This document shows positions 41,890 through 41,969 of a DNA stretch of 64,000 bases, in pieces (position 1 is the stretch's first letter; each line of letters starts with the position of its first letter). Below the pieces are notes generated by a model. It was given only the letters and a program-made list of their open reading frames with translations, had not been told where the DNA came from and did no database searches. Position numbers and translations under genes: made by a program. The DNA is from an uncultured Pelagibacteraceae bacterium. GTDB lineage: Bacteria; Pseudomonadota; Alphaproteobacteria; Pelagibacterales; Pelagibacteraceae. The stretch lies in assembly GCA_902606115.1 (NCBI GenBank), contig CACLFM010000001.1:1-64000 (forward strand). The letters are read 5' to 3'.

Positions 41890-41927
41890 TTATAAACACA
41901 ATTAATCTAAAATAATTCAATCATAAG

Positions 41928-41956
41928 TTGACGTCGAGTCCTGCCTAGAGTCTAAT
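41928..41956 (+). promoter_or_regulatory. Candidate ccrM promoter with two GANTC sites
   Basis: TTGACG (41928-41933) and TCTAAT (41951-41956) are 17 bases apart and would drive ccrM. Two GAGTC sequences, substrates of CcrM-type methylases, lie inside this span: 41936-41940 just after the -35, and 41948-41952 overlapping the -10. GANTC is rare in AT-rich DNA, so two copies within 17 bases are unlikely to be random. Methylation could therefore feed back on ccrM transcription. Confidence 0.5.
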
Positions 41957-41969
41957 AATTTTTTTTAAA

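Follow-up and report, generated by a model that had tools for sequence, protein, structure and literature searches.

Control of ccrM by methylation state, acting on two GANTC sites at the promoter of this GANTC methylase gene, is already published as a proposal for Caulobacter crescentus, where the gene is described as being expressed from the hemimethylated state (PMC10073500, PMC2217572). The Caulobacter promoter is activated by CtrA, and it is mainly in this organism, via CtrA, that the control of CcrM is understood. Stephens, in 1995, is said to have placed the GANTC sites 3' to the CtrA-dependent promoter. Further Caulobacter promoters, namely those of mipZ, ftsZ, ftsN and podJ together with ctrA P1, have GANTC in or beside a sigma70-type core promoter in a genome that encodes GcrA, which as a dimer binds GANTC in its methylated form and brings in RNA polymerase (PMC3667746). 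One temporal class is distinguished by a GANTC located between -10 and -35 (PMC4287350). A feedback loop on the other member of the GcrA-CcrM pair is described in Agrobacterium tumefaciens, whose gcrA promoter holds six GANTC sites and is repressed by CcrM (PMC11514494).

The locus presented here was found in the window, by which is meant the whole stretch of 64,000 nucleotides that was analyzed, and comes from a genome of the Pelagibacter type. It shares with Caulobacter ccrM the two GANTC sites at the methylase promoter, but CtrA was not detected in SAR11, and the sites occupy the spacer and the start of the -10 hexamer instead of lying 3' to the promoter as reported for Caulobacter. With the mipZ group it shares the core-promoter position of GANTC and the presence of GcrA in the genome; it differs in that the target is ccrM itself, with two sites one helical turn apart, and in that the role of GcrA is putative. 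The difference from Agrobacterium is that the sites stand on gcrA there and on ccrM in SAR11.

The ccrM gene and its core promoter

The window's genome (G000) comprises 1.02 Mb in 33 contigs and is 86% complete, and the closest named relatives of its ccrM are Pelagibacteraceae. The gene lies between that for RNase HII and one encoded on the opposite strand. Both domains by which CcrM is recognized were found by Pfam in its product, N6_N4_Mtase (1.6e-68) and the C-terminal RAMA (1.3e-18), and the NCBIfam CcrM model is by far the best match, with 571 bits over 346 of its 350 positions. This score does not reach the equivalog cut-off of 830 bits, and the name of the 830-bit model points to Caulobacter-type CcrM. 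The gene is called CcrM-type on the basis of its domains and the literature, from which GANTC methylation in vivo is likewise taken: GANTC is methylated in Pelagibacter, and in strain NP1 99.86% was fully methylated in bulk DNA from culture (PMC9516812). Given this figure, any unmethylated state would be brief in SAR11.

A sigma70-type promoter ends 13 bp before the ccrM start (Table 1). The original prediction had placed two copies of GAGTC between and overlapping the candidate -35 and -10 hexamers, and both are present at the positions claimed, the first in the spacer and the second extending from the end of the spacer two bases into the -10. GANTC is found within the core promoter, as in promoters controlled by GcrA and CcrM. 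The candidate promoter is called from its hexamers and their conservation; it was not listed by the promoter scanner, because the scanner requires A at -10 position 2. The transcript start and short leader are predictions from the same hexamers. Equivalent geometry in nine other genomes of the class would give ccrM leaders of 0-3 nt, which suggests that their ccrM mRNAs may be leaderless.

Upstream, TTCAATC and GTTGAC (41916-41932) form an imperfect dyad over the -35, TCAATC-N3-(A/G)GTTGA, possibly an operator for some regulatory factor. The string TTCAATC-N4-GTTGAC occurs once in the complete genome G215 and once in contig C1 of G000, both times at ccrM.

Table 1. Features of the ccrM locus, in window coordinates.
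Feature	Position	Strand	Basis or remark
TTCAATC conserved block, 5 bp upstream of -35	41916-41922	+	near-invariant in Pelagibacter promoters
-35-like hexamer TTGACG, 5/6 match	41928-41933	+	sequence; GTTGAC 41927-41932 invariant
CcrM target site 1, GAGTC, +8 from TTGAC, wholly in spacer	41936-41940	+	sequence, conservation
CcrM target site 2, GAGTC, +20 from TTGAC	41948-41952	+	sequence, conservation
-10-like hexamer TCTAAT, 5/6 match, 17-bp spacer to -35	41951-41956	+	sequence; 41949-41956 invariant
Predicted transcript start (near 41963) and leader of about 7 nt	41963-41969	+	inferred from -10 geometry
ccrM, GANTC adenine methyltransferase, 360 aa	41970-43052	+	Pfam N6_N4_Mtase and RAMA, NCBIfam CcrM model

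Conservation of the paired sites in Pelagibacter

An alignment of eighty related loci, anchored at the start codon, gave 78 distinct promoters, which were scored for changes on the ccrM tree. GTTGAC and the run AGTCTAAT have not changed once, while third codon positions show a mean of 11 changes each; in the TTCAATC block six of the seven columns are invariant and one has 3 changes. With further genomes added, 67 distinct Pelagibacter core sequences were compared, from related genomes that are not independent of one another. Conservation in other SAR11 ccrM promoters had been named as a check on the original prediction, which its absence would have refuted, and both GANTC sites are indeed kept in 58 of these 67 cores, site 1 being lost in 6 and site 2 in 3. 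Where site 1 is kept (61 cores), its middle base is A in 41, C in 12, G in 5 and T in 3, and the site occurs in two registers, +8 or +9 from TTGAC. Site 2, kept in 64 cores, stands always at +20 and has G as its middle base throughout the genus.

The fixed GA-TC, the free middle base and the sliding register of site 1 suggest that the sites have been selected as GANTC, while at site 2, with its constant G within the genus, selection for a CcrM target is less clear. This constancy, the invariance of 41949-41956 and the adjacent conserved TTCAATC-N4-GTTGAC, itself no GANTC site, would suit ordinary promoter or operator letters, such as an extended -10 (GAGTCTAAT) or a factor site, at which targeting by CcrM is incidental. 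Such an origin is nevertheless improbable in our judgment: site 1 varies in N and register yet keeps GA-TC, the middle base outside the genus is C or A at site 2 and any base at site 1, and the pair is found almost exclusively at the gene encoding the enzyme that methylates it. To judge from the 9 of 67 Pelagibacter cores and the several Pelagibacteraceae genera that lack one or both sites, the pair is dispensable.

As GANTC is short and occurs throughout the genome, a chance 5-bp motif in an AT-rich promoter was also weighed. The window contains 85 GANTC where 161 are expected, a depletion of about two-fold. Counting across the genome was another check attached to the original prediction; GANTC pairs separated by 3-12 bp number only 21 in the 1.02 Mb, and a single TTGAC-N10..15-GANTCTAAT was found in all of it. 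The 120 bp upstream of 329 orthologous genes, on 339 kb or about one third of the window's genome, were further compared with the complete relative G215, and two conserved GANTC sites were found only at ccrM; a single conserved site occurs at 17 further genes, in several cases inside tRNA genes or coding sequence. Conservation and geometry at ccrM far exceed shuffles and controls, and chance occurrence, to which we give practically no credence, is refuted by the comparative data.

Intergenic GANTC is not enriched in G215 (92 found against 86 expected), which speaks against a broad GANTC regulon there and, given this expected intergenic level, the depletion seems to be located in coding sequence. 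On contig C1 of G000 the intergenic count is 25 against 12 expected. A single GANTC (CATACGAATCAGTTTGATTAT) conserved with G215 lies in the divergent ubiA/DUF2721 promoter (C1 69236-69287; L249:9236-9287), which is possibly a second methylation-sensitive promoter.

Spread of the layout across the class

The layout is not peculiar to SAR11 and is widespread in the class. A sister family (f2) carries TTGACCTC-GATTC-TATTTT-GAATCATATT upstream of ccrM; its genera g2 and g4 have TTGAC-N3-GANTC-N6-GANTC (+8, +19), and g3 keeps site 2 only. Among other Pelagibacteraceae, site 1 is kept and the -10-proximal site absent in g173 (with one exception) and g174, while g171 and g172 have one site or none and g5 has none, all retaining ccrM (L201-L205, L127). 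A GcrA match was seen in G123, a g5 genome devoid of promoter sites.

At least two GANTC lie within 150 bp upstream of ccrM in 48 of 60 class genomes, against 7 expected from shuffles. Among 62 TTGACs upstream of ccrM in the 59 class genomes outside the genus, GANTC stands exactly at +19 in 25 (middle base C in 17, A in 8) and at +8 in 17 (G in 6, T in 4, A in 4, C in 3); on the reverse strand of the same 59 genomes, taken as control, no GANTC was found at either offset. The strict pattern is present upstream of ccrM in 22 of 60 class genomes against a shuffle mean of 0.007, and neither canonical offset is present in 25 of the 60. A gene-blind search of whole genomes returned 66 copies of TTGAC-N3-GANTC-N6-GANTC in 65 of 387 class genomes and 4 of the reversed control pattern; ccrM lies directly downstream of 26 of the 30 copies examined. 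This pattern appears close to a ccrM-specific signature, of which the window's copy (+8, +20) is a one-base variant that stands outside the strict-pattern counts. Several class genomes have an extra GANTC about 14-16 bp upstream of TTGAC, and others hold four to eight GANTC in the 150 bp upstream of ccrM (L128-L185).

From GANTC counts per 500 bp, a survey of 2010 judged that control by methylation could not be deduced (PMC2877005); the signal missed by such counting emerges when spacing is measured relative to TTGAC. No description of the fixed TTGAC/+8/+19 geometry, its class-wide spread or its presence in SAR11 was found in the open literature searched, outside which many older key papers lie, and all three features seem to be new.

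Candidate readers of the mark and a proposed feedback on ccrM

GcrA is encoded in 36 of 41 genomes, that is, in the window's own (a full-length PF07750 match at C2:92657-93085, 4.5e-39) and in 35 of 40 relatives. No GcrA match was obtained in 6 of 60 class genomes; GANTC pairs nevertheless precede ccrM in several of these 6, although a divergent GcrA may escape such a search. CtrA was not detected: G000 scores no higher than 104 bits against the CtrA model, whose cut-off is 350, and none of six further Pelagibacter genomes exceeds 143 bits, whereas four genomes from elsewhere in the class reach 416-426 bits. The CtrA activation that characterizes Caulobacter-type ccrM control was not found in SAR11, and the negative CtrA search agrees with Brilli et al. 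2010. Feedback through methylation of gcrA was considered for SAR11 and rejected: the gcrA promoters examined lack GANTC altogether or carry a single one at about -136, and because none has a GANTC nearby, feedback does not seem to run by this route. The other SAR11 promoters examined have almost no conserved GANTC.

Based on the comparative sequence evidence, we consider it likely that the two GANTC sites are selected cis-elements and that the ccrM core promoter is controlled by the m6A which its own product lays at GANTC. Passage of the replication fork would leave both sites hemimethylated, and in that state the promoter would fire and CcrM would accumulate until it restores full methylation and firing falls. 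Each round of replication would bring a single burst of CcrM, and the level of the enzyme would be homeostatic. The methylation state would probably be read by GcrA with sigma70, for whose dimer two sites one helical turn (11-12 bp) apart between -35 and -10 could naturally serve as a platform. Alternatively, sigma70/RNA polymerase might read that state directly, which is conceivable because site 2 overlaps the -10; in either case the CtrA step of Caulobacter would not be needed.

A promoter that is on when hemimethylated and off when fully methylated is favored over methylation-activated control because of the accounts of Caulobacter ccrM and the methylation gradient along the Pelagibacter chromosome, which has been read as delayed methylation of the daughter strand (PMC9516812). 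The opposite sign, in which GcrA and sigma70 activate ccrM only when the sites are methylated and thereby form a self-maintaining loop, is a serious rival, though in our estimation rather unlikely. It would be in keeping with the recruitment of RNA polymerase to methylated promoters by Caulobacter GcrA, with the lowered transcription that follows GANTC mutations at ftsZ, mipZ and ftsN, and with the weakness of the -10s next to site 2 in other genera (CATGGT, for instance), a trait to be expected of activator-dependent promoters. Such a loop, however, would not be easily restarted from unmethylated DNA, and expression of Caulobacter ccrM from hemimethylated DNA and repression of the Agrobacterium gcrA promoter by methylation both argue against it. 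Of the retained methylation feedback switch that was originally proposed, the sites stand, being conserved and apparently selected as GANTC in SAR11, and they are joined by the published proposal that SAR11 methylation lags behind replication. Identity of the arrangement with that of Caulobacter is not supported in the form proposed, given the reported place of the Caulobacter sites 3' to a CtrA-dependent promoter. The promoter's character as a switch and its sign belong, with the methylation dependence, the reader protein and the cell-cycle timing, to what we infer.

Tentatively, and with some doubt, the class-wide ccrM-specific signature (TTGAC, GANTC at +8 and +19/20) may be read as an ancestral alphaproteobacterial autoregulatory methylation switch, older than or independent of CtrA control, and in SAR11 the GcrA-CcrM system may have shrunk to little beyond this self-loop. 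By way of an ancient and conserved switch in the DNA, CcrM probably monitors its own output. Since SAR11 has this layout in common with many distant Alphaproteobacteria, direct methylation feedback may be the general mode of control. The layout also gives assays of promoter activity and methylation in cultivable species a small and precise target, and it opens a way to study cell-cycle timing in some of the ocean's most abundant cells, in which CtrA is not detectable.
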